From assembly GCA_964017235.1 (NCBI GenBank), contig OZ024938.1:61743816-61807815 (forward strand): a stretch of DNA of 64,000 nt. Direction: 5' to 3'. The notes below the pieces were generated by a model. That model saw nothing but the letters and a program-made list of their open reading frames with translations, was not told the origin of the DNA and ran no database searches. Below are positions 24,201 through 59,369 of the stretch, piece by piece; position 1 is the first letter of the stretch; each line of letters starts with the position of its first letter. A program made the position numbers and the translations under genes. Source of the stretch: Sabellastarte sp. h YS-2021. Lineage: Eukaryota > Annelida > Polychaeta > Sabellida > Sabellidae.

Positions 24201-27200
24201 AAGTGAGTGCTTTTGGTAGGTTCTAAATGTCGGAAACACCGTTCTTCTTTCCGGATTGACAATACTTCATCTTGGAAAGTGTTTCAGGATATATTTTCTT
24301 ACAGTGGAGTAAAAAAGTCGATTATGGGTCGATCATCGGTCAGAAAATTGGACGAATAATCGACCGCGAAAATTGAGGCGATTCCACTCACTAATAGAGA
24401 CACGTGTAATGTTAATAAAATTTCCTTATCAATAAGCTGACATCCGTGTGAAAAATAAAGATCCGTAAACCCCATCCGTGAGTGTCCGCAAGGTCGGTAA
24501 GCCCATCTGGGGTGTCCTTGAGACATCCTGATGCATCCGTATATTGTCCTGGGGTGTTTCCGCCGCAATGCGGGTGGTCACGGATGTGTATTCGGGGGTC
24601 ATCCGCAAGCAACGAAACGCATCCCTAATATCCTTGTGGCATCCTTATTATCCGTAGCGTGATCCGTGACGCGTCCGTAAATCACGCACTTTTCTAACAT
24701 TCCCCCTCCCCAAACCCCACGATCCACAAGAGATCCTTGGCAGTTACCATATATGAAACCGTGGCCTATATCCGTTGGGGTTCCGTGAAAGTGTAACTGT
24801 CCCCTTACTTGATGCTATCTATATAAACTGGAAAATCATTTGTCAATTACAATCTTAGGAGTTTTGTTATCATATACTGAAATTAAAATATTCTATTGTA
24901 TTCTTAGCTGCCATAACTGGCTTGATTAAAAGAAATAAGTAGGTAAATTAAAATCTACATGAAAAGTATATTTCTCCATAATAACCTGAAATCTGGACCT
25001 CAGAACAATACCCTCAGTATCATCAACAGGATCTCAAATGCTGTTGACACAACACCAAATCCCTCCACACCAGGACTTGGAGTTCTGTTTAGAATATTTC
25101 CTTTATGCTTATTTAACTCACAAAGTATGCCAGGCAGTAGTAATTTCAGTTATTTCTCTCACCTCCTGAAGGATCTTCATTCGCCAGTGTCTGGTTCTGT
25201 ATCCCTGGGTGAGTGTTTGTGCTCCCCGAGGAGCTGCTTGTTTATAAATATTAGAGTATTGGACAAGGTGACATTTCCCAGGATGGTATATACTTTGGTT
25301 TAGCGTCCGCTACGCCGCCGCCGCCGCCGCGCGTAGAGAGATTTTCGGCGTTAACGCTCTAAGAGGAAAACAACAGCAGCTAGGTTCACCAAATTTGCAG
25401 GATATCTTCATTGGGGGGTAAGCTTCTCTGGGAAGGAAACTAGCCTCATTCTGAAAAACAATATGGCCGCCACGGGCATTTCTTTGAAAATAATCTACAT
25501 TTTTCTACTGGCTGTTCCTCATAGGTAGAAGGTTGAATCTCTTCATAGGTGATATGTATGACACATATACATGTCCTCTACAACCTTGCACACATTTGAC
25601 CTTGAAGCTCCTAATTCAAGGTCATCCACGGAGTGCTGAAGTAACCCACATAGCGCACTTTAAAAGTGCCTATATCTCCCTTATTATTGGTCCTAGAGGT
25701 TTGCAATGTGAAGCCAACCTATAGGAAATCATGTGCTGCGAATTTCTGATGTGGTCATATTTGACCTTGGACCCCTCCTTCAAGGTCAAACGAGGATAGC
25801 AGAACTTAAAAGTGCTTATAACTCGCTTATTATCGATCCTAGAGGTTTGGGATGGTAAACCAACCTATAGGAAATCATGGGCTGGGAATCTTCTGGCGTG
25901 GTTGGATTTGACCTTGGGCCCCTCCTTCAAGGTCAAGCGAGGACAGCCAAACTTAAAAGTGCTTATAACTCGCTTATTATTGGTCCTAGAGGTTTGGGAT
26001 GGTAAACCAACATATAGGAAATCATTGGCTGGGAATCTTCTGGTGTGGTCGGATTTGACCTTGGGCCCCTCTTTCAAGGTCAAATAATTACAGCCAAACT
26101 TAAAAGTGCTAATAACTCACTTATTATTGGTCCTAGAGGTTTTTGATGGTAAACCAACCTATAGGAAATCATGGGCTGGAAATCTTCTGGCGTGGTCGGA
26201 TTTGAATCTCTTCATAGGTGATATGTATGACACATATACATGTCCTCTACAACCTTGCACACATTTGACCTTGAAGCTCCTAATTCAAGGTCATCCACGG
26301 AGTGCTGAAGTAACCCACATAGCGCACTTTAAAAGTGCCTATATCTCCCTTATTATTGGTCCTAGAGGTTTGCAATGTGAAGCCAACCTATAGGAAATCA
26401 TGTGCTGCGAATTTCTGATGTGGTCATATTTGACCTTGGACCCCTCCTTCAAGGTCAAACGAGGATAGCAGAACTTAAAAGTGCTTATAACTCGCTTATT
26501 ATCGATCCTAGAGGTTTGGGATGGTAAACCAACCTATAGGAAATCATGGGCTGGGAATCTTCTGGCGTGGTTGGATTTGACCTTGGGCCCCTCCTTCAAG
26601 GTCAAACGAGGATAGCCAAAGGTAAAAGTGCCTATAACTCTCTTATTATTGGTCCTAGAGGTTTGGGATGGTAAACCAACATATAGAAAATCATGGGCTG
26701 GGAATCTTCTGGTGAGGTCGGATTTGACCTTGGGCCCCTCTTTCAAGGTCAAATAATTACAGCCAAACTTAAAAGTGCTAATAACTCACTTATTATTGGT
26801 CCTAGAGGTTTTTGATGGTAAACCAACCTATAGGAAATCATGGGCTGGAAATCTTCTGGCGTGGTCGGATTTGACCTTGGGCCCCTCCTTCAAGGTCAAA
26901 CGAGGATAGCCAAAGGTTAAAGTGCCTATAACTCGCTTATTATTGGTCCTAGAGGTTTGGGATGGTAAACCAACCTATAGGAAATCATGGGCTGGGATTC
27001 TTCTGGTGTCGTCGGATTTGACCTTGGGCCCTTCATTCAAGGTCCAACGAGGACAACCAAACTTAAAAGTGCTTATAACTTGCTTATTATTGGTCCTAGA
27101 GGTTTGGGATGGTAAACCAACATATAGGAAATCATGGGCGGGGAATGTTCTGTCATGGTCGGATTTGATCTTGGGTCAAGCGAGGACAGCCAAACTTAAA

Positions 27201-30200
27201 AGTGCTTATAACTCGCTTATTATTGGTCCTAGAGGTTTGGGATGGTAAACCAGCATATAGAAAATCATGGGCTGGGAATCTTCTGGTGTGGTCGGATTTG
27301 ACCTTGGGCCCCTCCTTCAAGGTCAAATGAGGACAGCCAAACTTAAAAGTGCTTATAACTCGCTTATTATTGATCCTAGTGGTTTGGGATGGTAAACCAA
27401 CATACAGGAAATCATGGGCAGGGAATCTTCTGTCATGGTCGGATTTGACCTTGGGCCCCTCCTTCAAGGTCAAGTGTGAGGACAGCCAAACTAAAAAGTG
27501 CTTATAACTCGCTTATTATTGGTCCTAGATGTTTGGGATAGTAAACCAACATATAGGAAATCATGTTCTGGGAATCTTCTGGTGTGGTCGGATTTGACCT
27601 TGGGTCCCTCCTTGAAGGTCAAATGAGGACAGCCAAACTTAAAAGTGCTAATAACTCGCTTATTATTGGTCCTAGAGGTTTTGGTGCATTGTCTTTACGG
27701 TGGATACAATTTGCATCGGTTCTCCGATGCGCTAGGTCTAGTTTCTATTGAAAACATTCCTGGTTTTATGGCTTACCTAGGTACAAGACTTATCAAAATT
27801 AAAACACATACAGTGGTATTGCATTGTGTATTTATACTCTGCGCAATATCTCATTGTACTACAAGACTCAAAGGACTATTTGGCCCATGCTGACTGCACA
27901 AGTACAGATCAAACTCTCAAAGTTACTGACATTCCCTTAAATGAAAGGTCGGGGCCATGGTGGCGGAGTGTAACACTGTCACCTCCCACCTCCGAGGCCG
28001 GGTTTCCGCTCCCGGCACGGCCTCAAGTTGGAAAGCTGATAGTTGCTTGTCATTAGTCGGCAGTTTACTGTACAGAACCTTGACCAACTGTATGTACTGG
28101 TTTTCTCTGCCCTTCCAACTACCTGTTGTGATATGACCTGTACAGTGTTGAAAGCGACGCAAAGCCCCAAATAAATAAATTAAATGAAAGGTTCAAGGAT
28201 GACCATATATGAACTTCCATGAGGTTCTTTATCCTGACACTGAATATAACTTCTATATTTCAGGACACCCATGAGTACTACACTTCCCAGGTGTTTTCTG
28301 GAACCTCCTCCTCACACTCTACAATGTGGAGGGACAAGCTGTCTTATCCTAACACCATGAAACATGCCTCCCTGTCCCATGCACACAGAACTGCTTTTGT
28401 AAGTATGTCTGCTAGAGTGACTGAGTTAAAGTTAACTTAATTAAATTCCTTACCTTTGATCAAGTTTCCATTCACATGGCAATTTCAGGTGTGACTATTG
28501 TGCAAAGACGGAATGCATAAATTTTTATGACAGACTCAGGTAATCTGAAGGAATAAAAAAATTAAGCATATGCTGTTGATATTTTGGGCATCTGATAAAA
28601 TAAATTTTCACAAAATAATAAAGTTGATAAAGGGGTTTGATGAATGAGGAGTTTCACATTGTGTGATGCATTTCGCATATCTCACTATATTTGTGGTGTG
28701 TTTCACAGTGTTTTTGGTGTTTGTCATCATTTTATAACATAAGGCTGGCTCAGTGGTTTTAGTGATAAACTCAACCTGCCAACCAATGGGTTTATGGTTT
28801 TGAATCCATACTATTGACTCTAAAAATTACCTAAACTACCCCACATAGTATAATACTAAACTTTTAAAACCTGAAACTAAAATGTGAGCTGCAAATCTTG
28901 CTCTTTAACAAAATTAACCTCTTTCAAACCCCTCCAAGAAGCAAGTAAATAGGGTTTTTATTTATTAAATTTTTTTTGTTCCTGTAAAAGTGTGAGACTA
29001 TTGGGGAGTCTCAGAGGTAATTTCACTGGTCGAACAGAGCCAGTGCTTTGAATTTCTTGCTTTGTTCATACTTAAGCAGAATACTAAATTACAGAGATAC
29101 ATGTGTAAATGTATTACCCAAAGTAATGTGTCTCTGACATAAAGTTGTGTCCTTGGCTTTGTGTTGGTTTCTAACTTTCTATAATACAGGATAGTTATTT
29201 ACTTGTATTTGTGGACAGAAAACTTGTAGATGTTTATTGTTTAGCAAAATATGAAACAATAAGGTGAGCAAAGTGTATGGATAAATCCCTACATTAAGTA
29301 ATACAGTGACTCAAAAGAAAGGCCACAAAACCTGAAGTAACATCCAGTCCACTTAAATCCATCTGCTCTTTGCAAATACGATGCTACAAGAGGAAATTGG
29401 GAGAAAAATAAGTAATTAGATTACAGTCACAGAGAATTGTGGAGACACTGGCATTATAACAAGTGAGAGACAACATAATGTTCCTCTGTGCAGATCAGGT
29501 ATTGACCAGAATTTTTGTCACATAAACTTGGCCACACAAAATCCCTACTAGTCTGGTTCAAATTGGGAAGTTAGCTCTCGTGAACTTAATCTGTTGTAAT
29601 CAGAAGGCTCAGTGAGAGGTGTTGGTTTGTAATTTTTATATCCAGGCAGCCAGGCCCCATTTCACATCAAATTTATGAACATGCAATATTGATGTCATGT
29701 TACAAAAAAATTACGCAATAAAACAATAAATTTAAACTGTTAGATCTCTTACTGCTTCCAGGTCCTCTAGCTGCTAGAAAATATTAACCCCCCCAAAAAA
29801 ACCGAAATAAACAAAAACAAAACCAAAAAAGACAGGACCACTACTGTGGTGGTTATCTCCTGGTAGGTATTAAGGAAAAATTGAAGAAGTGTGACCTTGA
29901 GACAGAGTTCTTAGTCCATGTACCCATAATGAGGGAGATTTAAGGCTCTTTTAGTATGGTAACTCAAATCTGAAACAGGGTACAAAGTTAAATTGGATAC
30001 TTATAAAAGATTTAAAGGCCATGATTTCTTACAAGTTGTTTTATATTTCCCAGCCCTTGGGCCAAAATTTAAAGAGATATAAGGCCTTTTTAGTATGATG
30101 ACCCCACTCGACCTTAAAGCAGAGGTCCAAGGTCAAATTTGATATTCACAAAAGATTGGCACACCATGATTTCCTGTCAGTTGTTTTAACATTTCAAAGC

Positions 30201-33200
30201 CTTAAAAATTTAAAATGGATAATAAGGGAGATACAAGGCCTTTTTAGTATTATAATAGTGATCCCGCTAGACCTTTAAGGAGGGATCAAAGGTCAAATTT
30301 GACACATGCAAAAGATTCGCAGACCATGATTTGGTGTAAATTGTTTTCACATTTCAAAATGCTAGAACCTGTTATAAAGGCGATACAAGACCTTTTTAGT
30401 ATGGTGGCCCAAATCAACTTTAAAGAAGGGGTCAAAGGTGAAATTTGACACATGCAACAGATTTGCAGGCCATGACTTCCTTTGGGTTGTTATCACATTT
30501 CCAAGCCCTAGGACAAAAAGTTAAAGAGATATAAGGCCTTTTCAGTATGATGACCCAACTTGACCTTGAAGCAGGGGTCAAAGGTCATATTCAACACTTA
30601 CAAAAGATTCACAAGCCACGATTTCCTAAAACGTCCTTTCACATTCTGAAACCCTAGGACCAATGATAAGGGAGATATTAGGCCTTTTAATATGATGACC
30701 CAATATGGCTTTAAAGATGTGATACGGCAGCCATTTGTTTTCAAAATATGATCAAATTAATCTCAGGCAGGGCCACGGTGGCAGAGTGGTAACACTCTCG
30801 CCTCCCACCTCTGCGGCCGGGGTTCGATCCCCGTCATGGCCGTAAGTGGGAAAGCTGGTAGTTGCTTGCCGTTGGTCGGCAGTTTACAGTACAGAACCCT
30901 AGCGAACTATATGTACTGGTTTCCTCTGCCCTTCCAACTACCCGTCGTGATATGACCTGTACAGTGTTGAAATCGACGTAAAACCCCAAATAATCCAGCC
31001 TTATCCAGTTTGTACAAATCTGATGAAGCTAGCTGCAATATTTTAAATTTTGGAACATCTTAATGATCTTCAAGCAATCATCTATGGTGGCCATTTTGTT
31101 TTTTTTAAATGAGGCCAAAATTTATTTGCATATATAAATGTTTAAATACTAGTCATAAACATTCCCTGCAAATTAATTTGAAGATATTTTCATAAATGAA
31201 TGTGATTTAAAAGTTTATGTAAAACCATGACAAACGGATGCTCACATGCATGCATATATAGAAGGCATTTCAGAATCTCGCGATCCTAGCCTTTCAGACT
31301 GGCCGGAGATAATTAGTGTACTCAATTTGTATTGCCCTTGATAGAGTTTTCATTAACGTGACATTTTCTGGAACTGTAATTCTCCTCCAAGGTAGAGCTC
31401 TATGTAATAACTAATTAAATTTTTGTGACAATCTCAATTAAAATTTGGAACTGAGGGTGTCTCTGATGTTTTTCCCATATATACTTATTACTAATAAAGT
31501 TTAACTTAATATATATCCCAATGTCCTATAGTGTAATATTTCACATGAGTTTTTTATAGTAGGGCCTGTTATTAGGTTGTTGAAGAGTGTGTCAGTACAC
31601 TTTTAAAGGTTTAAGTTTTATTTGGGGTACAGTATTAGCATAAGGATACTCTTGTATTTTAATATTGACAGTTTTAATAATATTTACATAAAATTAACAA
31701 TTTCTACTGTTTCTTATGGAAATAAAATGCTCCATGAATGATGATATTCTCATCATAAGGGTTATTGTAAGAGAATCCGAGTTGTAAAGTAACTGCTGTA
31801 ACAGCTTTATGCCATGTGTTTTAGAAGTCCGAGTAAGAAATGTGAAGTGTGCCAGAGTAATGTGAAATTTGTCATTTGTATCACCCCTAATATTATAAAA
31901 CAAGAACAAAATGTTACAAATTATTTCAGTATCTAATTTTCAGTGGTCAGATAACTGACCAGGGGCGTTATCCAGTACTATCCACCAACATTCCTATCTT
32001 AGTCTTAGTCCTAGCTTTAGTGGTTTATCATTTTAATCATATGGTTAATTTTTTTTCTATTATAGTAAGCACAATTTTAAATCTTAAATCTTCATGTAGA
32101 ATTATTATACTTTAAAATTACTAACTGAATTTGATTATTGATTTAGAGTATCGTTAGAAAGTGATGATTGATACTTGTATCCAGTGGAGGTATCCGGTGG
32201 ATACTTTGGTTTAGCATTCGCTAACCTAGAGCCTAGAGGTTAGGGATGGTAAACCAACACATAGGAAATTATGGGCTGGGAATCTTCTGGTGTGGTCGGA
32301 TTTGACCTTGGGCCCCCACTTCAAGGTCAAACAAGGATACTGAAACTTAAAAGTGCTTATGATGCACTTATTATTGGTCCTAGAGGTTTTGGATGGTAAA
32401 CCAGCCTATAGGAAATCATGGACTGGGAATCTTTTGGTGTGGTCAGATTTGACCTTGGGCCCTCGTTCAAGGTCAAACAAGGATAGCCAAACATAAAAGT
32501 GCTTATAACTCGCTTATTATTGGTCCTAGATGTTTGGGATGGTAAACCAACCTATGGGAAATCATGGACTGGGAATCTTCTGGTGTGGTCGGATTTGACC
32601 TTAGACCCCTCGTTCAAGGTCAAACGAGGATAGCCAAACATAAAAGTGCTTATAACTCGCTTATTATTGGTCCTAGAGGTTAGGGATGATAAACCAACAC
32701 ATAGGAAATCATGGGCTGGAAACAGGGTTCCCACTGCACAGGGAAAACAGGGAAAACAGGGAAAATTGTGAAAAGTAATTCCAGACAGGGAAAACACAGG
32801 GAATTTGAAAATTTTGGAAAAACACAGGGAATTTGAAAATTTCAGAATGATTTTGAAGAGTAACAGCCATTTGCATTCACACGCTGCGGGTCGTGACTCG
32901 CCGGTCACATTTGATGTTTTGGCTTGATTGTGTTAGTATCTCCCGCCGGCGGGGTGGGAGATTATAAAACGCATTCCGTGCGTGCGTGTGTTCATGTGTT
33001 ATTGAGTGTGTGTCACGCTTTTATAAAGGGCTGTACATCACACTGGTTGTTTCTCCTTGGCCTTTTCAATGTTTTTTATGACCTTATTGCTTATGTCCTT
33101 TCATTTGATACTGTTATTTCACACCTAGGACCATAGCTAAGTGAGTAATAGCAATGGTGGCTACTTTGAGTAAAGTGCTCATAACTCCAAAACGACTGCA

Positions 33201-36200
33201 TTTAGAGTGTTTCTGTAAAATACGTTGTTCAGCTACTTTCTCCATGCCTACAAGATGGTACCATTTTTAGGGTTCTATCTTCATAGCTAAGTGAGTAATA
33301 GCTATTTTCTGTTATTAACAATGAGCAAAATGAGTAAATTGATTTTGTCTTTGTAACTGTTACTTACAATATTGGCCTGAAATATGTTGTTCGACAACTC
33401 CTTCATGTACTATATCATGGTGAGGTGTCCAAGGTGTAGCACCATAGCTAACTGAGTAATAGCTATACTAAGTTTAACATTTGACCATTGAGCAAGTCAC
33501 TTATAACTCAAAAGCTATTGAATATAGAGGATTTTTGTCGAATATGTTGTTCACCTATCTTTTGGATATACTGTATTGTGAATTTTCACAGCTGTAACTC
33601 CATAGCTAACTGAGTAATAGCTACTTTGATGATAACCATAATGAGTAAATGGCTTATATCTTCAAAAGTATTGCAGCTACACAATTTTGTTCCAATATGT
33701 TGTTCAGCTACTATCTCCACAGCTACAACATGGTCACTAGTTTGGAAGTGTATCTCCATAGCTAAGTGAGTAATAGCTACTTTGTCAATTTTTAATGATA
33801 ACCATAATGAGTAAATGGCTTATATCTTCAAAAGTATTGCAGCTACACAATTTCTCTCAAATAAGTTGTTCATCTACTTTTTTGTGAACTGTAACATATT
33901 TAAGTTTCACAACTGTTGCTCAATGTACAAGTGAGTAATGGCTACTTTATTGCTACTTTTGGTGAAAATGTGAAAAATGACAAATATCTCGCAAACCGTA
34001 ATAGCTACTTTGTCAATTTTTAATGATAACCATAATGAGTAAATGCCTTATATCTTCAAAAGTATTGCAGCTACACAATTTCTCTCAAATAAGTTGTTCA
34101 TCTACTTTTTAACTCATTCATCTACTTTTGGGAGAGCTTTCACATGGTGAAGTTTCAGACTCGTAGCTAATTACTCACCTACTGAAAATGAGTAAATGCG
34201 AATTATCTCTAAAAGTATTGCAGATAGCCAATTTTTCTCAAATAACTCATTCGCCTACTTTTGGGAGAGCTTTCACTTGAAGTTTCAGATCCATAGCTAA
34301 TTACTCACCTACTGAAAATGAGTAAATGCGAATTATCGCTAAAAGTATTGCAGATAGCCAATTTTTTATCAAATAACTCATTCACCTACTTTTGGGAGAG
34401 CTTTCACTTGGTGAAGTTTCAGACCCATAGCTAATTACTCACCTACTCAAAATGAGTAAATGCGAAGTATCGCTAAAACTATTGCAGATAGCCAATTTTT
34501 CTCAAATAACTCATTCACCTACTTTTGGGAGAGCTTTCACTTGATGAAGTTTCAGACCCATAGCTAATTACTCACCTACTCAAAATGAGTAAATGCGAAT
34601 TATCTGTAAAAGTATTGCAGATGGCCAATTTTTCTCAAATAACTCATTCACCTACTTTTGGGAGAACTTTCACTTGGTGAAGTTTCACACCCATAGCTAA
34701 TTACTCACCTACTCAAAATGAGTAAATGCGAATTATCGCTAAAAGTATTGCAGATAGCCAATTTTTCTCAAATAACTCATTCACCTACTTTTGGGAGAGC
34801 TTTCACTTGATGAAGTTTCAGACCCATAGATAATTACTCACCTACTCAAAATGAGTAAATGCGAATTATCTCTAAAAGTATTGCAGATAGCCTATTTTTC
34901 TCAAGGAGTTTTGTCAAATATGTTGTTCACCTACTTTTTGATGTAGTGCGGCGGGAGATCATACCACGGCAGTGGTCTTGTTTTATTTATAAAATCCACA
35001 GGGAAAAATATAAACTTCACAGGGAAAACACAGGGAATTTAAATTGGAAAAGGGAGTGGGAACCATGTCAGGGAATCTTCTGGTGTGGTCGAATTTGAGC
35101 CCCTCCTTCAACATCAAGCGATGGTTCACTGGCTTTTGTGAGTTGTCTTTCCGGTGGGTACAAATTTACATTGGTTCTCCAACTTCGTAGGTCTAGTTTG
35201 ATTGTTCGTTGAATTTGGTTATTGAAATAAAATCTTCCAACAAATGTACAAGTTAAGAAATAGGGAGAGTGTTTCTGTGAGGGATTGGGGCTTTTATTTT
35301 GGGAAGTACAGTAATTGGAAATCATGGGCTAGGAATCTTCTGGTGTGGTCGAATTTGAGCCCCTCCTTCAACATCAAGCGATGGTTCACTGGCTTTTGTG
35401 AGTTGTCTTTCCGGTGGATACAAATTTGAATTGGTTCTCCGATGCGTAGGTCTAGTTTGATTGTTCGTTGATTTTGGTTATTGAAATAAAATCTTCCAAT
35501 AAATGCACAAGTTAAGAAATAGGGAGGGTGTTTCTGTGAGGGATTGGGGCTTTTATTGTGGGAAGTACAGTAATTGATGTGTGTACCCCAGGGAGCGGAC
35601 TGCTTTTATCACTGTTGTAATATAACATAGGGAAGTAATGGTTATTAGCCTAAATGAGAAGGGCTATTCCAGTGCAGTGTTAATCCCAAAACATTGCACT
35701 GATCAGACATTGTGGAGTGGGTATCCTGTAGCATTATTTCATGTCCTGGCATGTTGTGGCACTCCGTTGCAACTTTGTCTCTTAATTTTGGGTGCTGTGG
35801 GAGTGGGGGTGGGGCAGTTAGTTTTACTGGTGTTTGTAACTTTGTAGTTTGTACCATAGTATGTTTAATTGTTTGGTATAGGTAAAGATATCATTGTGAT
35901 ATAGAAGTACATTACAATGTCTTGAAATTTTCTCAATGATGTTGTCTTATCTTCACAGTTGACTCTACCTTTTTGTTGTTGTTTTTTTTTTTTTTTTGCG
36001 AATGAAGTGTTTATTCAAAATTTTCATTTACTGCCATTTGCACAATATTTAGATTAAGGCAGTAATAAATTAGTAATTAGTAAAGATATCTAGCATTTTT
36101 ACAAAGGCCAAATTAAAATCCAGGCAATTTGTGTAGATGGATTCAAGAATTGTACCAGTTACATTAGGGAAATTAAGAAAATAGAAAATTTGACAGTGAT

Positions 36201-42200: not shown

Positions 42201-45200
42201 CCAGAGTACTGAAACACTTTATTTAACATGTTTTTTATAACGAAAGCACATGTATTCTGCATCTTTGTTGTCATTAGAGGTGAAGGTCAAAGTTTGGAAA
42301 GTCTCTGGAGGCACCCAACTCACGAGTGGTATATACCACCTGTGAGACCGTTCTTGACCAATTTACAGGCTGTGAGGTCGTGTTTACGGCCGGTAAAAAT
42401 GCTGCATTATTTAGCATGAATTTTCTACCATGGTTCCCCCGTAGGGATGGGTCGGTAGCAGTATATGTCTTGGTATCAAGTGCATGGTACTGAAATGCTG
42501 TGACGATATCATCCAAACACAATCTCACTTGTCAACACATACACTTGATGGAAAACTTTAAATTGTCTACACAAATTCTCAATCTTAAGAAATTGTAAAC
42601 TTCCATCTCATCTTTTCATGCATTTGCAGACATTTATAAAAATTTCATTGAAAACAGCTGCCATAAATGGCATTCTGAGTTTCACTTCCTATAAGAGACA
42701 ACAGTTTACATTCACCCTTTTTGATTGTCAATGCATATAATTGAAGGAAAGCTTAAAATACTGAAAAAAACCCATAAAATCCCAAAATTTTGTCACATTT
42801 AAATCCTTTGTAGCTATTTTGAAAAATGGTACTGCCATGTTTTGTTTTCATGTGCTTCGACTGGGGATGTACTAAAATTCTATAACACATCTTTTTTTAA
42901 AATCCGAATGGGAAACATTGGCATCCTCTCGATCTTTATATTTTTGATACCGACCCATCCCTAGTTCCCCGACACCTGTGGTTTTAAACCACCCCCCCCC
43001 CTACACATGCACTGCATCACCATCTGGATATTAAAAAAATATTATTGGATTTTCCCATTTATTTAACATTTATTTATTATTTTATACCCTAACAGAGGTA
43101 TGTGATGTCTGTAAACTGTGTGTTAGAATGTACCAGGTCACAGGTTAAACATTACAAAAGTATAATTAGATTGTATTAGTGTAGTTGTAACTATGTGACT
43201 TTGTTTTTATGACAATTGTAGGTTTTCTCTACATGAGTGATTTTGTGCATCAGTGGTTAACAGCTACTCAGTATATTGCTCCACTCATGGCAAACTTTGA
43301 CACCAGAATTGGGAATGAATCGGAAATATATTATGTCGACACAGGTATAAACAGTTATGGAAGACATTTTTAAAAGTGTAACATTTTGTAAACTTGAATT
43401 GACTTAGTATTGACATTACATTGAAGTTGCTGTTAGTATTGTTTTATTAAAAAATGGTTCAGGCTTTCGGAACCAGGCATGTATTTTTTAGGCTGCAAAT
43501 AACAGTAAATTTTGAATTGTAGTATTTTTTGCCATGATTAATCTCCAAAATGAGTCTTCTTTCATACCATATAATAGGCAAAATTTTCTGGTAAAAATGA
43601 TTTTGTTCATTCTAGATTTATGAGGATATTTGCAAAACAGCAAAATTATAATTTTTGAACTGGTACAGCTGTGTATATTTTAAACATAAAGTGGTCCTGA
43701 AAGCATTTTATATTTAAGGAGTTATACACCATGTATTTAATTGAACCAGGCATGAATTTGAATTCAAAGTATTATCAGTTTAATGTTACAGTACATTCCA
43801 CCCACTTCCTAGCCCGAGCTTGTCCGAGAAATGTTGATTAAAAAGAACACTTGTAACTTGGAATTTCTGTCACATGTTGATGGTTTGCAGTGTCAAAGGC
43901 TGGTTGTTTCCCTGTACTGATACTACTTAGCACAAGTTCCAAAACAGTTGATTGCAAACTAAAACCCTGTTCAACTCGTACATCTCTTGGGTTTAACTTA
44001 TTAGTTATTTTGCAATAAACAATTAAATACCTTGAGAAATTGATTTTCAAAGTAGTCCCTTATATGTAACTTTACATGTAGCAAAATTTAAAATTTAAAA
44101 TGAAAATCTCTTCTTTTTAGTTCAAATTATTCACAGAATTGTTCATCTACTATGTGAACTGTGATTTGCCTTCATTGTTTTCCTGAGCCTTCAGGTCCAG
44201 GGTCACTTTGTTTTTGATCAGCAAAATCCCTTTTTTTTTACCAGTTGTTTTCAGTAACATTCACAATTTAAATTGGCAATACCAACTGATCATTGTTTCA
44301 ATTTTCTCTTCAGGCAATGAGTTTATTGTGTGGTGGGAGAACTTACATTTGAATGATGATATAGAAGGTAAGTGGCACAATCGTTATAAAGTTCAAAGAA
44401 CAAATTACTGAGTATTGCATATTTTCCAGCTTTATGTGAGAGATGACATGCAATCTGTTTTGTCTTCTGTGATGAAGTTCAAAAATATCCAAACATATTT
44501 ACTTAAATTTTGTACTTTTGCAAATTCATGTTTTGTCTACCCATATTCACTAAGTGGCAAAAATGAACTTAATTTGAAGTTTTTGTGATTTCCCTCGATT
44601 TCTAAATGGGTTTTACTGAAATAAAGATTAACTGTATCACTGTAAAAGTAGCTTTCCAGTGATATATATGCAGTATATATTTAAGAATTCAATATTTTTA
44701 AAATATGTGTGAAAATTGAAACTGATCCTATTTATGCAAAATCCGTCCACACTGAAGGACACTGGTACATACAAAAAAATGAAAAAATATTATCCATTCC
44801 ATAGGTTTCACATTTAGATCATATACAGCATACTGTGAATAATTGTCTCCACCGGAGGCATCCGGTGGATACTTTGTTTAGTGTTTGCCACGCCGCCGCT
44901 GCTGCGGGTAGAGAGATTTTCGGCATTAGGCTCTCAGAGGAAAACTACACCAGCTAGGTTCACCAAATTTGCAGGATATCTTCATTGGGGGGTAAGCTTC
45001 TCTGGGACTGAAATTAGCCTCATTCTGAAAAACAAGATGGCGGCCGTGGGCATTTCTTTGAAAATTATCTATATTTTTCTACTGGCTGTTTCTTATAGGT
45101 AGAAGGTTGAATCTCTTCATATGTGATATGTATGACAGATATATATGTCCTCTACAACCTTGCAGACATTTGACCTTGAAGCTCCTAATTCAAGGTCATC

Positions 45201-48200
45201 CATGGAGTGCCGAAAAAACCCACATAGCAGACTTTAAAAGTGCCTACATCTCCCCTATTGGTCCTAGAGGTTTGCAATGTGAAACCAGCCTATAGGAAAT
45301 CATGTGCTGTGAATCTTCTGATGTGGTCAGATTTGACCTTGGACCCCTCCTTCAAGGTCAAACGAGGATAGCCAAACTTAAAAGTGCTTATAACTCGCTT
45401 ATTATTGGTCCTAGAGTTTTGGGATGGTAAACCAATCTGGGAAATCATGGACTGGGAATCTTCTGGTGTGGTCAGATTTGACCTTGGGCCCTTCCTTCAA
45501 GGTCAAACGAGGATAAGCAAACTTAAAAGTACTTATAACTTGCTTATTATTGGTCCTAGAGGTTTTGGGATGATAAACCAATCTATGGGAAATCATGGAC
45601 TGGGAATCTTCTGGTGTGGTCGGATTTGACCTTGGGCCCTTCCTTCAAGGTCAAACGAGGATAGCCAAACTTAAAAGTGCTTATAACTCGCTTATTATTG
45701 GTCCTAGAGGTTTGGGATGGCAAACGAACCTACAGAAAATCATGGGCTGGGAATATGTTGGTGTGGTCAAATTTGATCTTCTGCCCCTCCTTAATGGTCA
45801 AACGAGGATAGCCAAACTTAAAAGTGCTTATAACTTGCTTATTATTGATCCTAGAGGTTTGGGATGGTAAACCAACTTATAGGAAATCATGGGCTGGGAA
45901 TCTCGTGATGTAGTTGGATTTGACCTTGGGCCCTTCCTTCAAGGTCAAACGAGGATAGCCAAACTTAAAAGTGCTTATAACTCGCTTATTATTGGTCCTA
46001 GAGGTTTGGGATGGTAAATGAACCTACAGAAAATCATGGGCTGGGAATATGTTGGTTTGATCAGATTTGATCTTCTGCCCCTCCTTAATGGTCAAACGAG
46101 GATAGCCAAACTTAAAAGTACTTATAACTTGCTTGTTATTGGTCCTAGAGGTTTGGGATGGTAAACCAATCTGTGGGAAATCATGGGCTGGGAATCTTCT
46201 GGTGTGATCGGATTTGACCATGGGCCCCTCCATCAAGGTCAAACAAGGATAGCCAAACGTAAAAGTACTTATAACTTGCTTATTGTTGGTCCTGGAGGTT
46301 TGGGATGGTAAACCAATCTATGGGAAATCATGGACTGGGAATCTTCTGGTGTGGTCGGATTTGACCTTGGGCCTCTCGTTCAAGGTCGAACGAGGATAGC
46401 CAAACTTAAAAGTGCTTATAACTCGCTTATTATTGGTCCTAGAGGTTTGGGATGGTAAATGAACCTATGGGAAATCATGGACTGGGAATCTGCTGGTGTG
46501 GTCGGATTTAACCTTTTTCTGTCCATCCGTCTGTCCGTCCACATTTTCGTTTCCGGACTCTAACTCGAAAACGGTTTGTCCAATCGAATTCGTACTTGAC
46601 AGGGAGATAGATCACCAACATAGCTAGGTTCCTTTCGAAATTGGTGTAATTCCGTCCGTTCGTTTGTCTGTACATCTGTCTGTCCGTCCACATTTTTGTT
46701 TCTGGACTCTAGCTCGAAAACGGTTGGTCCAATCGAATTCAAACTTGACAGGGAGATAGATCACCATCATAGCTAGGTTCCTTTTGAAATTGGTGTAATT
46801 CTGTTAGTTTGTTTGTCCGTTTGTTCGTCAACATTTCTGTTCCCGGACTCTAGCTCGAAAACGCTTTGTCCAATCGAATTCAAACTTGACAGGGAGATAC
46901 ATCACCATCATAGCTAAGTTGCTTTCGAAATTGGTGTAATTCCGTCCTTTTGTTTGTCTGTTTATATCATAGATACAATTATGTAACCTAGATTACAAGT
47001 TTTACGTTTCTTAGCACATCTAACACATTAACCTTAACTGGGTAACCTAACATTTCTTTCCTTGTTTCTAAATGCAATTACAGCAGTTGCTAACCTTATT
47101 GCTGCCTGCGCAACCCGCCTTTTGGGGCATCTTTGACCCTCTTGTTTTTGACAGTACCTGTGTGTTAAAATAGGGTGAGTGTCTGCAATCTAGGAATTCT
47201 GTAGGTTTGCCAGTATGTAATAGGTACTTTGTTTAGGTGGGATTTTATTATTCATTTCTATTGATGTTAGCTTTAAATGATTTGTCATCTAAATTTATTC
47301 ATAATGTCTATATTATAAAAGTAGGTAGGGTATACTTAGGTATAGAATTAGGTGAAATGTGTTAATTGTCTCCAGTAATGCAGGTTGCTTGATTTCCAGG
47401 GTTGTCCAGCAGTGGTAGGTTTCATATACTGTGACAAATTTCGCGCGTCTCACTGTGTATATATGTTTGTGTATCTCCCTTACAGCTGGTTATTTTACAT
47501 TCCAAGCTCGCCTTTCCTCCACTGGAGTCATCACATTTGCATATAAAAAGGTGAGTTGGGACTTTATGATTTTTCACAAACGATTAATTATTGAAGCATT
47601 TGTAGAACAACAAGATTACTAGAAATTGATGACCAAATGTGCATACAAAGTTCAGCTTATTTAGATAGAAAGTCTCCGAGGTGGAAACTCCCTATTTAGG
47701 TGTTTGGGACCTCGGTGGCACTGTGGTTATTGAATGTGTCAGGTGATCACCTGACCTCCTCCTTGTACACAAGGTGGTCATGGGTTTGACTCCATCTCAT
47801 GACAACATGTTGGAAATCGTACTGCCTTGTCCCGATATCACCTTAGCTGCAACAAAGAATTTTAAAACAAAAGGTTGACCCTCCCTGTACAGATGAAGTA
47901 ATTTTTTTCAGGCTGTTTCTATCAAATGTAACTTTGATATCCAGTCATTAGAAACATTTGTCAGGTCCTTCTGTCATATTTTAACAACACTATTTTCTGT
48001 GTATACAACATTATTTGGTCATATGTTAAATACTGCTATATGTTTAGTCATTTAAGCAGATAAAGATGTAATATAAGCTATAATGTTGGTATAACATTTT
48101 CATGTTTTAACAAATTTATGAGACATAAGGTAGTGGTTTAAGTTTCCTCAATGATACTGATAATAGAGTGTTTTGTGAAAGACAGTGCAGTTAAATTTTT

Positions 48201-51200
48201 TTTTTTTTCTAACTGATACTGATATTTATATTGAGAAATGTGAATGTCTGTCCAGCTATCCATTCATCCATCTGAAACCTCTACCCCATCAAATCCTTGC
48301 TTTTACAACTTTATGGGAGCCCTCTGCTTGAAGTAGCTTAAAATTCGCACGGATTGCAACGTCTTGTATTGAAAACAGGAATGGTTTGATTTTATGAATG
48401 TATTGAGATATGAGTTCACCTTACTCTCTGGTATGCATCTATGATTGTACATGGTTGAGAGGTCTACAGTGGCACAGTTGTAAGACTCGCCTCCACCTCT
48501 GAGGTCAGACTTTGAATCATGGCCTAATCACATGTGGGAAAGCTGGTACGTGCTTGCCACTGGTCGGCAGTTTACACTACAGTTTCCTCTGCCCTTTGAG
48601 CTATCCCTCACAGTGTAACTGTTAAGATCCAAGGAGTAAAACACCAAATAAATAAAATAAAGAAAAATTTTACATGATTCAGTTGAATTTCGAGGGACTG
48701 TAAAAATACTTCTACTTGACTACGATTTACACATAATGGTGGGGTGATATAAGTGGAGAAATCCTCTCATGAACTAGGCATAGACATGTACTGGATAGGA
48801 AATTAAACTAATAAGAGTTCTACTTCTGCTGTAAAAATATAGTAAGGCATGAAACAGAAAAAAACTTCTGCAGTTTGTGGAGAAATAATATAATTGGGTG
48901 AAGGTGACAAGATATTTGATATTTGATCCTTTACATAACAAGCTACAATGAGTCGATATACTTTGAGGAAGTATATAAGTTTGCACTTGGGTTCAGCCTG
49001 GCAGAATTAAATATAGTGGCTGACTCTTATTTTATATTGGTCATGACAACATTATATAACATGAAAGCTTTTGTCATTCTGTGTGCACATTGACGTCTTG
49101 AATTCATGCCAAATATTTCAGTGAAATGTGCTATAACACTCTGGTTTGTTTCTGTAGTCCCAGTGTTATTGACAAACATGTTACTATTAAAGTATTAGGC
49201 AAGAAATAAATCTTGAGAATGACGAAAATTTAATGTCCTTATAGCAGTCATTGATTTTGAGCCCTTGTGCTTTTCGTGAGAGCTCCAGTTTGTTTATTTG
49301 GTGGCGTTTCATAATCTATACATTTTACATAATACACAAGTTATGACTAGGATAGCAATAGGAAAACTTCCCAAATGACATAGGATGCAATTGAATATAT
49401 TATATTGTCATCTAAATCATCTTCATTAATTTTGTGATGTATCTTTTTTTGTATGTATCTATTAGACATTGTCTAATAAGGATTTTTTTTACTTTTATTA
49501 TGTACTTTTATTCAGTGTTTTACATATCAAAGAAAAAAAAAATTCATGTTTGTGTACAATTTGTAAAATAGGAAACTTCCTGATTGACATGTACAGAAAA
49601 AGTATATCATGAATGAAGATAAGAATATTGTTCAAGTGCGTAGCACAAGTATTGTTAATCTTCATGGGTGATATATTTTTCTTGTATATGTTGAATGAGG
49701 GAATCAATGTTTTACTTTTATTAGCCACCATTTGTATGATTTAAGAGTTACAAATCTCCATATTTAGACAGAGAATGTGAAAAAGGCTGTCATATATACA
49801 GGGGCACTAGTGGCTATGAAAAACTCGATGTTTAACTTGCAGTTTCTCAGCCATTATTGAACAGATTTTTATGCAACAAAACAAGCAGAAGTGCAGTAAG
49901 AAGACCTTTCTAATGATATATAATACATATTTGTAGGTTACATACTTTCCAAGATATTAGTGAAAAACTGGAAGTTATTGACACTAATTATCCATGGTCA
50001 GGTGACAGTGACCACTGTATTAAAAAAAATACATCCCACTCTCTATATCCCACTATATAGTTCATACATGACACGTAGTGTATAATTAATCTCCCTATTT
50101 AAAAAAATATATATAGCCCCGAATAGATAGTAGAAAAGTAGAGTACAAATGTGTCCATAAAATTGAATTGTCATAGTATAATAAGTCAAAGATAAAAAAT
50201 TGAGATTTTAAGTTCCCAATTCAAGTCCAACAGCCAGGGTCATTTCAGGACAGTTCCTTGGTATATCTCACATGGTGTCATCAGTGGGATTCAAACCCAC
50301 AACCACTGAGGTGAGAATGTACGTATTAAGTGCCAAACTTGTGAACCACATGGACAGTGAGGTCTCCCCATATTAGGGATGGGTCGGTATGAAAAATATG
50401 TACATTGGGAGGTCACCAATGAAAAACTGTACCGATTCCGGGACTCCACATTTTAGTACATCACAAACAAACATGGAGGTTTCTTCTTCACGACATCGCA
50501 ATAAAAGTGGCCAGATGCACAAAATATGAAATGAAAACTTGTCATTTCTTCATATTTGTTCCCAATATTTTAAGTTTTTCTTCAATTATATGAGCTGACA
50601 AGCGAGATTGAGGTTATAAATTGTCGTAACCAAAACATGGCAGTTCTGTTCAACGTTTCACTATGAAAGTCTGCAAATGGACGAAAATATGGGAATAAAA
50701 GCTTATAATTTCTTCAGATTTTGGGTATGTTTCTCATATTTTAACTCTTCCTTCCATTATATGTGCTGACAAGCAAAGTGGCGGTTGTGACATCTCATCA
50801 CAGTATTTCACTAAAATGCTCTTGATACCGAGATACCGGGCCTCCCGACCCATCCCTACCTCATATACATTGGAAGGTTGGATAGTAGAAGTTCCACTCT
50901 GCCATGTCTATGGAACTGTCAACTATTGAAAGTATTGAAGGTAGTTGATAAAGTCATGTTTAGTATTAACTGCATTATGTGCACACCAGACTTAGTCTTA
51001 ACCCTGGGTGAGTTAAGAGAAAATGCATGTAGATCTGTAAGATTTTTTTTTTTCTGTACAAAATGGTGAGAATCAGTAGGGCTGCAAATGGTATCAAAAG
51101 TATTTATTAAGGAATTGTGCAATGATTTATAAAAAAAGCTTTGTTTTTATTTAATGTTGAGAATTTTTTGGAAATAAAGTATTTATTGAAAATTAACATA

Positions 51201-54084: not shown

Positions 54085-54193
54085 GTGAGTTGGTTTGCAT
54101 GGTGAACTATGTATGGTATCCCAGATATATGCTTGATGAATGGTGCATGTTAGAAACAGTATTTAGTGACAACCTGCCAAAAGATGACCCCTA

Positions 54194-54234
54194 AGTAGTA
54201 CTAGGTTGGGTCGATTGACCCAAATAGTACTACT
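54194..54234. repeat. Perfect hairpin 109 bp after PLXDC exon 8
   Basis: AGTAGTACTA and TAGTACTACT form a 10-bp outer stem, and GGGTC-GATT-GACCC an inner stem. Confidence 0.7.
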
Positions 54235-56099
54235 CCCCTACAGTGGTAAATGGAAACATTGAACCATTGATACTCAGAATTAGAAACAAAAATGATTATA
54301 AAGTAATTGTTCCAGCATATCTGAAATCAAACTGTTCACTCTAAAATTCTGTAAGCACCACACTGATGCATCCAGATCCAAGTTTTCTTCAAGCCGAACA
54401 AAGTAATGCAAAAAATATTTAAAAATATTTTCAGAAATTAAAAAAAAAAGTTTAATCATTTTAAGTTGAGCTGTATACTATATGCAAACTTTATCTTCTG
54501 ATTTCGATAAAAGTTTCAGAAATTAAAACTATGATAATGTTTTGTGTCGTCTTATATTTGGTACTTACAGAGAAGGTACCTGACAGTAGTTCCACCTATA
54601 TTGGATTGGATTATATCGTGAATTATCAATGTACACTGGCGTGCCTCGATAAAGTAAAATGAATGTTGCATTGATATTCATCAGTAGTTTGTTATTAGAT
54701 GGTAGGTTGTCACTAGTACACTTGATCTGTGGTAGCATGAGGATATTGGATGTCTCTAGGATCTCTTTTGTATTTATATCCAAGCTGAGTAACGTGTTGT
54801 TGATCAACAAAGTTTGAAACCATCATACTATGAGGGTCAGTCCAAATACTGAAGTTGGCACAAATTAATACAGTAACCAGTGGAACACACTAAATGTGAG
54901 GAAAAATACTAATAGATAATAGATATGCATATATATACATTGCAAACTCCAATCCATCAGGATTTCGAATTCCGACATCAGAAATCCAATTGGAAGTTGT
55001 GATATCAGAAACTCCAGTGCAAGTTGTAATATAGGAATTTGAAAAAAATGTGGTATGAGTACTTCAACATTTATTTGAGAACACATGGGTATGTTATTAT
55101 ATAGATCTGCTTCTTCATGTCTTCATTTTATGGAGTTCCTTAATCCCTGGTCATGGACTTATTCATGTACACGAGTCTACATGTGTTTGAATAGTAACCT
55201 TATGTGTAGATGGAGAAAATTAATTACAATATACCATTTTTGTATGCAGCATATCATAGAATTCCTGCCTTATTTACATACTTATGAACTAAGCCACACC
55301 TAAACATATAAGCAATAATTTAAATATACAGTTAAAAACTTAAATATTAAGAAAAGAACACAAGTTTGTCTGCATTTATTTGTGTATCGTGTAATAACTG
55401 TACCATGGTTATTAACGTCATGAAAACTGAGTGCTCACATAATTCGTGTAAATGTTTCAAAGCGTGAGACCGGGTACAGATAATCATAAAAAGTTAAACA
55501 GACTGTTGAGGATAAGCATCGTATGTGACCATTCTTTGCCTACATTTCAGCCTTAGGTTAGTGATGTAAAAGGATATCATAAGGTTAGTCTTAGAAATGA
55601 TTTCAACAGTCATATTTACAAAAAAAAGTGAAAAAAAAGGTTCAGTTGTGTTTGAGAAAAGACTGTTGTTTGCAAACTGGGTATTATACGACAAATGACA
55701 AACTGCAGTGTTCTAATAGTGTATCTTAAAGACAACTGGAATCAGTGATATTGTCATTGATAAAGTTCAGAATGCCCATATATTCAAGGCCTCTGTTGCA
55801 TTTCTATATTGAACTTCACAATAGCTTTTCCCCATCAGATTTGACTATCAGATACTGTCACCTTTCATGGACAAAATGTGAAAAATTGGAAGTAATATTG
55901 AATACTGAAACTATGTACAATTTTGTAGCAGTGTGCATGGCAACTAACAAATAGTCCTTGCGATAAGACTGAGGTTAAATCAGTCTCATGTCAGTGTAAT
56001 CTGTTGTTAACCATTTGTAGTAACTGTTATTTAGTGTTCAGTTAACCTTTTTTGTTAACAATTTGATTAAGATTTTGTTGCTTATACAGTTCTGATTTT
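54235..56099. other. Unassigned, presumed PLXDC intron 8
   Basis: No family-like exon seen. Open frames up to 81 codons show no domain. Confidence 0.45.
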
Positions 56100-56870
56100 T
56101 ACCCCACAGCCTTTAATGGCCGTGTGGGTATTGTTTTCACCCATGGCGTGGATGGGCAAGCAGGCAGACTGTCGGACAGATGGCGGAAAAATGTTTCTCC
56201 AGGCTCTATCTCAGAAACCATAATATATAGGAAATTGGTTGGGGGTGTAGGTGTGCAATGTCATAGTGTGACCTGGGTTTGACTTTTGACCTTATTGTAG
56301 TCACCTTGACCTTTAAAATCATTCCCAGGCTTTATCTTGGTAACTATAAGGTGTAGGAAGTTGAGACTTGGTAGGAACATTGGTTGAGGGATGTAGTATG
56401 CAATGTCACGGTGTGATCTTGATTTAACATTGCTGTGGTGACCTTGACCTTTAAAATCTTGTCTGGACTATATCTCAGAATCTGTAAAGTGTAGAAGGTT
56501 GATATATGGTATGGACATTGGTTAGGGGCTGTAGGTATGTAATGTCATTGTATGACCTTGAATTGACCTCTGATCTTGCTGTAGTGACCTTGGCCTTTAA
56601 AATCCTGTCCAGGCTATGTCATGGAAAGCGTAAGTTGAAAGAAGTTGAAAATTGATCAGTTGATAGGGATATTGGTTTGACCAACATGGTGTGACACTAA
56701 TTTGACCTTTGACCTTGCTGTAGTGACTTTGACCTTTAAAACTTTGTCTGGGCTATATCTCAGAAACTGGAAGGTGTAGGAAGTTGATTTTTGAATGGGT
56801 CATTGGTTGGGGGTGTAGTAATGCTAAATCATGGTGTGACCTTAAACCTCAATTGGCTCTGCCAAAGTGT
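56100..56870 (+). mobile_element. 140-bp minisatellite element with hairpin start
   Basis: Hairpin TACCCCACAGCC-TTTAAT-GGCCGTGTGGGTA (56100-56130), then about five diverged 140-bp units with GGCTATATCTCAGAAACTG, AGGTGTAGGAAGTTGA, GACATTGGTTGGGGGTGTAG and ACCTTTGACCTTGCTGTAGT. Every unit has TGACCTTGACCTTTAAAA or close variants. Confidence 0.75.
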
Positions 56871-56940
56871 GTACAAGTCCCATATTTGAGACATATTTCT
56901 CTTATCAAAAAGATATATGGATTGCTGTAGCTTATTATTG

Positions 56941-59339
56941 TATCCACCGGAAGCATCCGGTGGATACATTGGTTTAGCGTCCGCTACGCCGCCGCCGCGC
57001 GTAGAGAGATTTTCGGCGTTAACGCTCTAAGAGGAAAACAACAGCAGCTAGGTTCACCAAATTTGCAGGATATCTTCATTGGGGGGTAAGCTTCTCTGGG
57101 AAGGAAAATAGCCTCATTCTGAAAAACAAGATGTCCGCCACGGGCATTTCTTTGAAAATAATCTACATTTTTCTACTGGTTGTTCCTCATAGGTAGAAGG
57201 TTGAATCTCTTCATAGGTGATATGTATGACACATATACATGTCCTCTATAACCTTGCACACATTTGACCTTGAAGCTCCTAATTCAAGGTCATCCACGGA
57301 GTGCCGAAGTAACCCACATAACGGACTTTAAAAGTGCCTATATCTCCCTTATTATTAGTCCTAGAGGTTGGCAATGTGAAGCCAACCTATAGGAAATCAT
57401 GTGCTGCGAATCTTCTGATGTGGTCAGATTTGACCTTGGACCCCTCCTTCAAGGTCAAACGAGGATAGCCAAACTTATAAGTGCTTATAACTCACTTATT
57501 ATCGATTCTAGAGGTTTGGGATGGTAAACCAACATATAGGAAATCATGGGCTGGGAATCTTTTGGCGTGGTCGGATTTGACCTTGGGCCCCTCCTTCAAG
57601 GTCAAACGAGGACAGCCAAACTTAAAAGTGCTTATAACTCGCTTATTATTGGTGCTAGAGGTTTGGGATGGTCAACCAACCTATAGGAAATCATGGGCTG
57701 GGAATCTTTTGGTGTGGTCGGATTTGACCTTGGGCCCCTCCTTCAAGGTCAAACGAGGATAGCCAAAGGTAAAAGTGCCTATAACTTGCTTATTATTGGT
57801 CCTAGAGGTTTGGGACGGTAAACCAACATGTAGAAAATCATGGGCTGGGAATCTTTTGGTGAGGTCGGATTTGACCTTGGGCCCCTCATTCAAGGTCAAA
57901 CGAGGACAGCCAAACTGAAAAGTGCTTATAACTCGCTTATTATTGGTCCTAGAGGTTTGGGATGGTAAACCAGCATATAGAAAATCATGGGCTGGGAATC
58001 TTCTGGTGTGGTCGGATTTGACCTTGGGCCCCTCCTTCAAGGTCAAATGAGGATAGGCAAAGGTAAAAGTACTTATAACTTGCTTATTATTGGTCCTAGA
58101 GGTTTGGGATGGTAAACCAACCTATAGGAAATCATGGGCTAGGAATCTTCTGACGTGGTCGGATTTGACCTTGGGCCCCTCCTTCAAGGTCAAACGAGGA
58201 CAGCCAAACTTAAAAGTGCTTATAACTCGCTTATTATTGGTCCTAGAGGTTTGGGATGGTAAACCAACATATAGAAAATCATGGGCTGGGAATCTTCTGG
58301 TGTGGTCGGATTTGACCTTGGGCCCCTCCTTCAAGGTCAAACGAGGATAGCCAAAGGTAAAAGTGCCTATAACTCACTTATTATTGGTCGTAGAGGTTTG
58401 GGATGGTAAACTAACATATAGAAAATCATGGGCTGGGAATCTTCTGGCGTGGTCGGATTTGACCTTGGACCCCTCCTTCAAGGTCAAATGAGGATAGCCA
58501 AGCTTAAAAGTGCTTATAACTCGCTTATTATCGATCCTAGAGGCTTGGGATGGTAAACCAACATATAGAAAATCATGGGCTGGGAATCTTTTGGTGTGGT
58601 CGGATTTGACCTTGGGCTCCTCCTTCAAGGTCAAACGAGGATAGCCAAAGGTAAAAGTGCCTATAACTTGCTTATTATTGGTCCTAGAGGTTTGGGACGG
58701 TAAACCAACATATAGAAAATCATGGGCTGGGAATCTTTGGTGAGGTCGGATTTGACCTTGGGCCCCTTCTTCGAGGTCAAATGAGGATAGCCAAACTTAA
58801 AAGTGCTTATAACTCGCTTATTATTGGTCCTAGAGGTTTGGGATGGTAAACCAGCATATAGAAAATCATGGGCTGGGAATCTTCTGGTGTGGTCAGATTT
58901 GACCTTGGGCCTCTCCTTCAAGGTCAAATGAGGACAGCCAAAGGTAAAAGTGCTTATAACTCGCTTATTATTGATCCTAGAGGTTTGGGATGGTAAACCA
59001 ACATATAGGAAATCATCTGCTGGGAATCTTCTGGTGTGGTCGGATTTGACCTTGGGCCCCACGGTCAAGGTCAAATGAGGACAGCCAAACTAAAAAGTGC
59101 TTATAACTCTCTTATTATTGGTCCTAGATGTTTCGGATGGTAAACCAACATATAGGAAATCATGCACTTGGAATCTTCTGGTGTGGTCGGATTTGACCTT
59201 GGGCCCCCCTTCAAGGTCAAATGAGGATAGCCAAACTTAAAAGTGCTTATAACTCGCTTGTTATTGGTACTAGAGGTTTTGGTGCATTGTCTTTACGGTG
59301 GATACAATTTGCATCGGTTCTCCGATGCGCTAGGTCTAG
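56941..59339 (+). mobile_element. 147-bp satellite element, locus 5: complete copy
   Basis: The most complete copy. It has 5' hairpin TATCCACCGG-AAGCAT-CCGGTGGATA (56941-56966), the head segment (CGCGTAGAGAGATTTTCGGC, TTCATTGGGGGGTAAGCTTC, TTGAAAATAATCTACATTTT) and about 13-14 units of 147 bp. These are followed by ACGGTGGATACAATTT, hairpin GCATCGG-TTCT-CCGATGC and GCTAGGTCTAG|T. It matches the DINE-1/HINE plan of head block, minisatellite, tail block and terminal stem-loop. No Rep/helicase is encoded. Long frames on both strands are repeat artefacts. Confidence 0.88.
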
Positions 59340-59369
59340 TTATATATACGTTTATTTAATTGTGCTATT

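Follow-up and report, generated by a model that had tools for sequence, protein, structure and literature searches.

The 147-bp satellite arrays found in a 64,000-nucleotide stretch of the genome of the polychaete Sabellastarte sp. h YS-2021 (GenBank assembly GCA_964017235.1, contig OZ024938.1, positions 61,743,816 to 61,807,815 of the forward strand), hereafter the window, most likely form the tandem-repeat core of a single non-autonomous, Helentron-like rolling-circle element (HINE, pearl-like) that is present in several copies. The repeat unit carries a 10-bp inverted repeat, which an earlier note on this DNA had read as a palindrome of nuclear-receptor half-sites. A probability of about 0.5 is given to the reading that the element is represented by a set of HINE-like copies and that the palindrome, if it has a job, most likely serves the element. 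An element-serving role is preferred to receptor binding, and a neutral passenger ranks not far below it.

The most complete HINE-like copy, designated e4, lies on the plus strand at 56938..59341, and consists of a left flank (LF, the 'head' of the earlier note), 13 full monomers with a partial last one, and a right flank (RF). Its parts follow the order 5' subterminal inverted repeat (subTIR), inverted copy of the subTIR (IR), microsatellite, tandem repeats, 3' subTIR and 3' palindrome, which is the order of HINEs as taken from PMC7492417 and PMC4067079 (these papers, and PMC5139131 below, are cited for parts of their text). In sequence, e4 reads TTG-TATCCACCGG...CCGGTGGATAC, TTTAGCG, a CGC run, a body of ~300 bp, the array, and ACGGTGGATAC...GCATCGG-TTCT-CCGATGC...CTAGTT. 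The 5' subTIR GTATCCACCGG (56940-56950, plus strand, as are all e4 parts) is followed by the IR CCGGTGGATAC at 56957-56967, which is also present at 44862 in copy e3 and at 32194 in copy e2, and is absent from copy e1. Folding of the 81 nt at 56930-57010 gave a z-score of -5.35. The CGC trinucleotide run occupies 56987..57001 in the LF, and LF runs of the same type, differing in length or letters, occur in e1 and e3. The 147-bp array (57328..59281) is preceded, ~36 bp upstream of the first full monomer, by an LF copy of the inverted repeat with a spacer of 12 (57263..57292). Beyond the array, the 3' subTIR ACGGTGGATAC (59295..59305), which is complementary to the 5' subTIR at 10 of 11 positions and was also found in e1 at 27697-27707, is followed by the 3' palindrome (59311..59328) and then by GCTAGGTCTAGTT. 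The 3' palindrome lies ~11-13 nt from the end, is present in e1 and e4, and is degraded in copy e5.

Tandem Repeats Finder and a hidden Markov model (HMM) of the monomer placed the arrays at 25.66-27.68, 32.2-32.7, 45.2-46.5 and 57.3-59.3 kb. They also located two remnants near 35 kb and, at 30.0-30.7 kb on the minus strand, an array that has diverged. Copies e1, e2, e3 and e5, all on the plus strand, are each damaged in their own way. Copy e1 (25290..27742) includes 12 full monomers and partial ones but has no normal 5' subTIR or IR, and it contains an internal 669-bp duplication of LF and array at 25530-26874, joined at the TTGA of the palindrome. In e2 (32175..32722) the LF is mostly gone and the RF is gone, leaving 3 near-full monomers and a partial one. 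In e3 (44839..46515) the LF is followed by 8 full monomers, and a further, partial monomer ends in the left palindrome arm; the copy is cut on the 3' side, and a 149-bp array with GTCC-type simple repeats starts at the left-arm break. Only right ends are kept in e5 (35059..35457), where two RF ends with monomer remnants form a 259-bp tandem. An old inverted array (29978..30703, minus strand) is built of homologous 146-bp units, clear relatives of the 147-bp monomer, in which the palindrome is degraded. Compared with the LF of e4, that of e1 is 96.0% identical over 373 bp and that of e3 89.5% over 400 bp; at their right ends, e1 and e4 share 71 bp without a difference.

TTG precedes the subTIR in e2-e4 and CTAGTT terminates e1, e4 and e5, which would fit the T|T insertion, without target-site duplication, expected of HINEs. 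A canonical Helitron (5'-TC, 3'-CTRR, A|T target) might also be read from the ends of e4, with CTAG|T on the 3' side and A|TCC on the 5' side; e3 instead has C|TCC, and the subTIRs point to a Helentron, which would have transposed the copies. Two features weigh against the assignment, namely that the 3' subTIR lies ~35 nt from the 3' end, slightly under the 38-60 given for mite HINEs in PMC4067079, and that e1 is without a normal 5' subTIR.

The element is ordinary in kind, a satellite-carrying HINE-like element of a build already in print for the oyster (PMC7492417). Like Cg_HINE of Crassostrea gigas, as described there, it has an LF with subTIR, IR and microsatellite, an RF with subTIR and palindrome, and a central array, the repeats of Cg_HINE being 138-181 bp with one cluster, CL6, given as 147 bp in the table and 146 in the text (compared by description only). 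Oligo-T insertion sites and the lack of target duplication in Cg_HINE would fit the ends of the copies here, and arrays of constant orientation are a further point of likeness. The microsatellite of Cg_HINE, in contrast, is mostly of 4-nt units (GTCY-like in several, with 3- to 8-nt units too) where it is CGC here, and the consulted part of PMC7492417 mentions no receptor-like palindrome for the Cg_HINE monomers. HINE/DINE-1 elements (PMC4067079) likewise have subTIRs at both ends, a 3' palindrome, tandem repeats in some copies and no proteins; for those, an autonomous Helentron partner and empty sites were reported, and the present assignment draws on ends and arrays. Two bivalve repeats treated in PMC5139131 are likened by description only: the pearl-like DTC84 of Donax trunculus, and phBglII400 of Ruditapes philippinarum, a satellite whose monomer has palindromes holding array junctions, as here, but whose name suggests a longer monomer and for which the consulted part mentions no HINE cargo.

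The relationships among monomers indicate how the arrays multiplied. With the duplicated, identical first monomer of e1 set aside, the first monomers of e1, e3 and e4 differ from one another by 3-6%, but each is 12-15% away from the most similar of the remaining monomers in its array. The second and the last monomers of e1 and e4 group together in the tree. Since first monomers, second and last monomers and right ends match across copies, the arrays moved with the element. Against a purely inherited array stand the interior monomers, which are not ordered by position, the clustering of most e3 units with other e3 units, and a mean distance of 10.2% within loci as opposed to 11.8% between loci. 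Because interior monomers ignore position and e3 units cluster together, the arrays have also changed locally. As arrays travel with the element and grow, the palindromes, although they number in the dozens, trace back to a small number of copying events and to array growth rather than to as many separate selections. The palindrome would thus be part of the repeat unit with a related copy in the LF beside the array; its abundance would come from transposition copying the array, and the arrays would then expand, contract and rearrange.

The palindrome itself was examined with an HMM trained on the 23 perfect units with an exact match to the pattern, taking units of 125 letters or more as near-full. 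In the window, 36 near-full and 5 partial young monomers were identified, along with 5 old units on the minus strand (29978-30689). The model also picked up 2 short remnants, near 35.1 and 35.3 kb, in which the left arm is missing its end. The earlier note had stated that nearly every monomer carries the pair. Both arms keep at least 9 of 10 letters in 33 of the 36 near-full young monomers and the 10-bp inverted repeat is perfect in 25, but three units are damaged, those at 45672 and 45966 with both arms changed and that at 27064 without the spacer and part of an arm. Two of the 25 perfect units were missed by the exact pattern because their spacer has 10 letters. When TTTGACCTTG-N11-CAAGGTCAAA was searched with up to 3 mismatches, 33 matches were obtained, 2 of them in the old array; 100 dinucleotide-shuffled sequences gave 0.01 on average. 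The inverted repeat is therefore real, though the half-sites in it are everted (TGACCT-n15-AGGTCA) and do not form the classical inverted pair.

The LF does hold the pair, as had been claimed, but its quoted 10-mers are 9 nt apart rather than 8 (12 against 11 when measured as in the monomer). The palindrome cores of LF and monomer have 25 of 32 letters in common. The rest of the LF had been called unrelated to the monomer, which holds for the 100 bp upstream (253 of 300 shuffles score as well), while downstream there is weak resemblance (14 of 300). The old array was also said to keep the pair. It does so poorly: the arms are identical to the young consensus at 70 of 86 positions, as compared with 38 of 49 in the spacer and 336 of 505 elsewhere, but one exact everted repeat with spacer 15 (ER15) is left across its whole length. 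As a whole, the earlier observation is partly confirmed.

Whether the palindrome is better conserved than the rest of the unit, a check that the earlier note had proposed genome-wide, was assessed on the monomers of the window by moving the arm mask circularly through 145 shifts and counting those as low as observed. In a parsimony analysis of 41 sequences (36 young and 5 old, 40 of them distinct), the arms have 26 changes at 20 sites and the remainder 271 at 115 sites; per site this is 1.30 in the arms, 2.82 in the spacer and 2.36 elsewhere, with 6 of the 145 shifts as low. Site permutation gave p = 0.007 for the arms, and p = 0.035 excluding CpG columns. Among all 36 units, mismatch is 2.5% in the arms, 7.8% in the spacer and 7.1% elsewhere (2/145 shifts). 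The effect is strongest in e4 alone (0.4% in the arms vs 5.8%; 1/145) and is seen in e1 (4/145), but e3 shows no excess arm conservation (60/145), and e2 and the comparison of old with young units gave 12/145 and 11/145, respectively. Moreover, two other boxes, GGAAATCATG and TAAAAGTGCT, are conserved to a degree comparable with the arms; in the old array GGAAATCATG (45/50) rivals them and even the spacer nearly matches them. The motif was noticed for being conspicuous, so any such conservation test is biased. The palindrome is real and mildly conserved, and its likeness to receptor half-sites is unproven as function.

These figures bear directly on the possibility that the palindrome is a passenger without function, a chance feature of the founder repeat that is conspicuous because the copies are young and the region little changed; the identity of the element as a HINE would still hold. 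The modest overall conservation, its failure in e3, the comparably conserved boxes and the choice of the motif for its conspicuousness all agree with this explanation, which we hold to be a serious though less probable alternative. It accounts less well for the low arm mismatch of e4, e1 and the 36 units together, and for the presence of the pair in an LF block with unrelated upstream sequence. Moreover, only 9 of 3000 shuffled monomers contained a perfect inverted repeat of 10 bp whose arms are separated by a loop of 3-15.

If the palindrome instead serves the HINE-like element, it may do so as a junction or recombination motif, whether hairpin or protein site, marking the place where arrays start, break and are exchanged, possibly in the course of rolling-circle replication. 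As single-stranded DNA, the palindrome region of one monomer folds better than shuffles on both strands (z ~ -4). Eleven breakpoints were compiled by hand after the arrays had been seen. In monomer coordinates, those near the palindrome are the LF/array start at 98, the internal junction of e1 at 105, the end of e3 at 109, the deletion in unit 27064 at 111-124, and in e5 a deletion at 106-111 and a junction at ~135; elsewhere lie the start (31) and end (82) of e2, an array end (44), the left break of e5 (62) and a 3-bp deletion (21). Six of the 11 fall in the palindrome or no more than 5 bp away from it, a window of 39 of the 147 positions that was chosen post hoc (P = 0.045). A precedent is found in PMC5139131, in which the array junctions of phBglII400 lie inside a palindrome and DTC84 has a conserved palindrome near the repeat junction.

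Several points tell against such a role. The breakpoint test is weak as well as post hoc, giving 5/11 in a tighter window of 34 positions (P = 0.087) and 4/11 in the 31-bp palindrome proper (P = 0.19). In the same paper, the junctions of DTHS3 are random and those of BIV160/Cg170 are without significant link to conserved motifs. A hairpin kept by covariation was considered and rejected, as 43 rows (36 young, 4 of the 5 old and 3 of the 4 LF copies; 41 distinct) gave one compensated cell in 407 and a covariation score reached by 220 of 500 shuffles, at low power. Of the readings in the earlier note, that of a palindrome working for the transposition machinery comes closer, given the HINE build and the bivalve precedent, although the junction role is one that we infer.

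The sequence YCAAGGTCA is the consensus of the extended half-site of NR5A, ERR and NR6A receptors. By exact matching, not with a matrix, the resemblance to (Y)CAAGGTCA proved real, with 42 copies of TCAAGGTCA and 34 of CCAAGGTCA in the window; of these 76 extended half-sites, 71 belong to the 147-bp family, 3 to a 138-bp array and 2 lie elsewhere. The two outward-facing extended half-sites of each monomer might be bound as monomers by NR5A/FTZ-F1, ERR or NR6A, with the arrays acting as enhancers or sinks in introns of the host gene, or driving germ-line transcription of the element. We regard this as unlikely. Everted AGGTCA pairs within 40 bp number 29 ER15, 4 ER16 and 2 others in the window, where no exact inverted pairs with spacers 0, 1 or 3 (IR0/1/3) and no ER6 or ER8 were found; direct repeats (DR) of AGGTCA within 40 bp are absent from e1-e5, and the old array has one relaxed DR1. 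We know of no receptor dimer element formed by an everted pair at spacer 15-16. A dimer arrangement is unnecessary for receptors that bind as monomers, and two monomeric sites with centres 21 bp apart, which would be about two helical turns, could bind such receptors. Outside the arrays, AGGTCA is somewhat over-represented (39 vs 25.1 expected), whereas AAGGTCA is at chance (9 vs 8.7). Further against the receptor explanation, boxes without half-sites are conserved comparably, and a transposon of a known type, carrying the repeats as its cargo, explains them.

The literature searches gave no work linking such repeats to receptors among the matches listed, as judged from titles and abstract starts, nothing relevant on receptors with satellites in molluscs, as judged by abstract starts, and, for the motif letters, no title about satellites among the matches listed. 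The sink or enhancer role put forward in the earlier note gained nothing beyond the half-site match itself, in view of the everted geometry, the chance-level AAGGTCA outside the arrays and the modest conservation, and its interpretation as a whole is partly supported.

A second array touches the same question. It has a 138/139-bp unit, lies directly upstream of e4 (56230..56843, plus strand) and contains GTGACCTTGACCTTTAAAATC boxes and, in the 711 bp examined, 12 AGGTCA including one DR0 and one DR1. No homology between this unit and the 147-bp monomer was detectable above the level of shuffles. These AGGTCA copies are the best hint of a receptor-linked convergence. The two unrelated families would then have kept CAAGGTCA-type half-sites independently, bound by a germ-line orphan receptor (NR6A/NR5A-like) that opens or replicates the element, i.e. 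a transposon exploiting receptors through its satellite core, which seems to us more doubtful still than receptor binding in general.

As 147 is 3 x 49, a protein of 49-aa repeats might also be readable through the array, and minus-strand frames of up to 146 aa do span about three units. Open frames in the 147-letter array consensuses number one and two for the two arrays of e1, one for e4 and none for e3. They differ among arrays, the overall consensus has none, ~31% of shuffled monomers have at least one, and the arrays are interrupted by stops and indels, which makes a coding repeat very improbable.

The surrounding DNA includes a plus-strand gene that we take to be PLXDC-like from the peptide motifs FDFPFYGH..TIATGG (40.3 kb) and NHPVKVGISDAYY (54.0 kb). 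This naming rests on the peptide motifs, because searches of Pfam with 10 pieces chosen from 128 frames, and of NCBIfam and PDB with 1 each, returned no matches. If it is correct, e2, e3 and e5 lie between exons of this gene; e1 precedes an exon-like peptide located at 28.3 kb, and e4 follows the last such peptide observed. A 194-aa open frame at 2642-3226 presumably resembles the C-terminal part of a long interspersed element (LINE) reverse transcriptase, with no Pfam or NCBIfam match.

Other repeats were also observed. A 134-149 bp array that includes simple repeats of the GTCC/GTCY type occurs twice, at 39679-40122 and 46511-46970, the second copy joining e3 inside the palindrome arm. Arrays of 133-bp and 155-bp units, related to each other, occupy 1-495, 651-1597 and 34031-34904, in opposite orientation at two sites. 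Compared with the 147-bp monomer, the 149-bp (minus strand) and 133-bp units reach z ~3 against single-letter shuffles, which is marginal. A repeat of ~220 bp resembling a tRNA-derived short interspersed element (SINE) is present in five copies, at 30761-31000 (+), 9400-9613 (-), 14706-14928 (-), 27952-28174 (+) and 48460-48582 (+); these are 75-99% identical, one being short and diverged, and ARAGORN detected no tRNA in them. Searches of the window for RNA families and tRNAs gave no hits. Scans of viral contigs and GTDB genomes with exact patterns also returned none, and have little bearing on distribution since few animal sequences are expected there.

The repeats are placed here in a known class, satellite-carrying HINEs, with evidence that the arrays are inherited with the element. 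A palindrome common to the LF and the repeat unit raises the question of whether it is a motif of the element, a receptor site or a relic. If it is bound by receptors, it would hint at the way in which transposons with a satellite cargo are read in the germ line, and at how they bring regulatory sites into introns.

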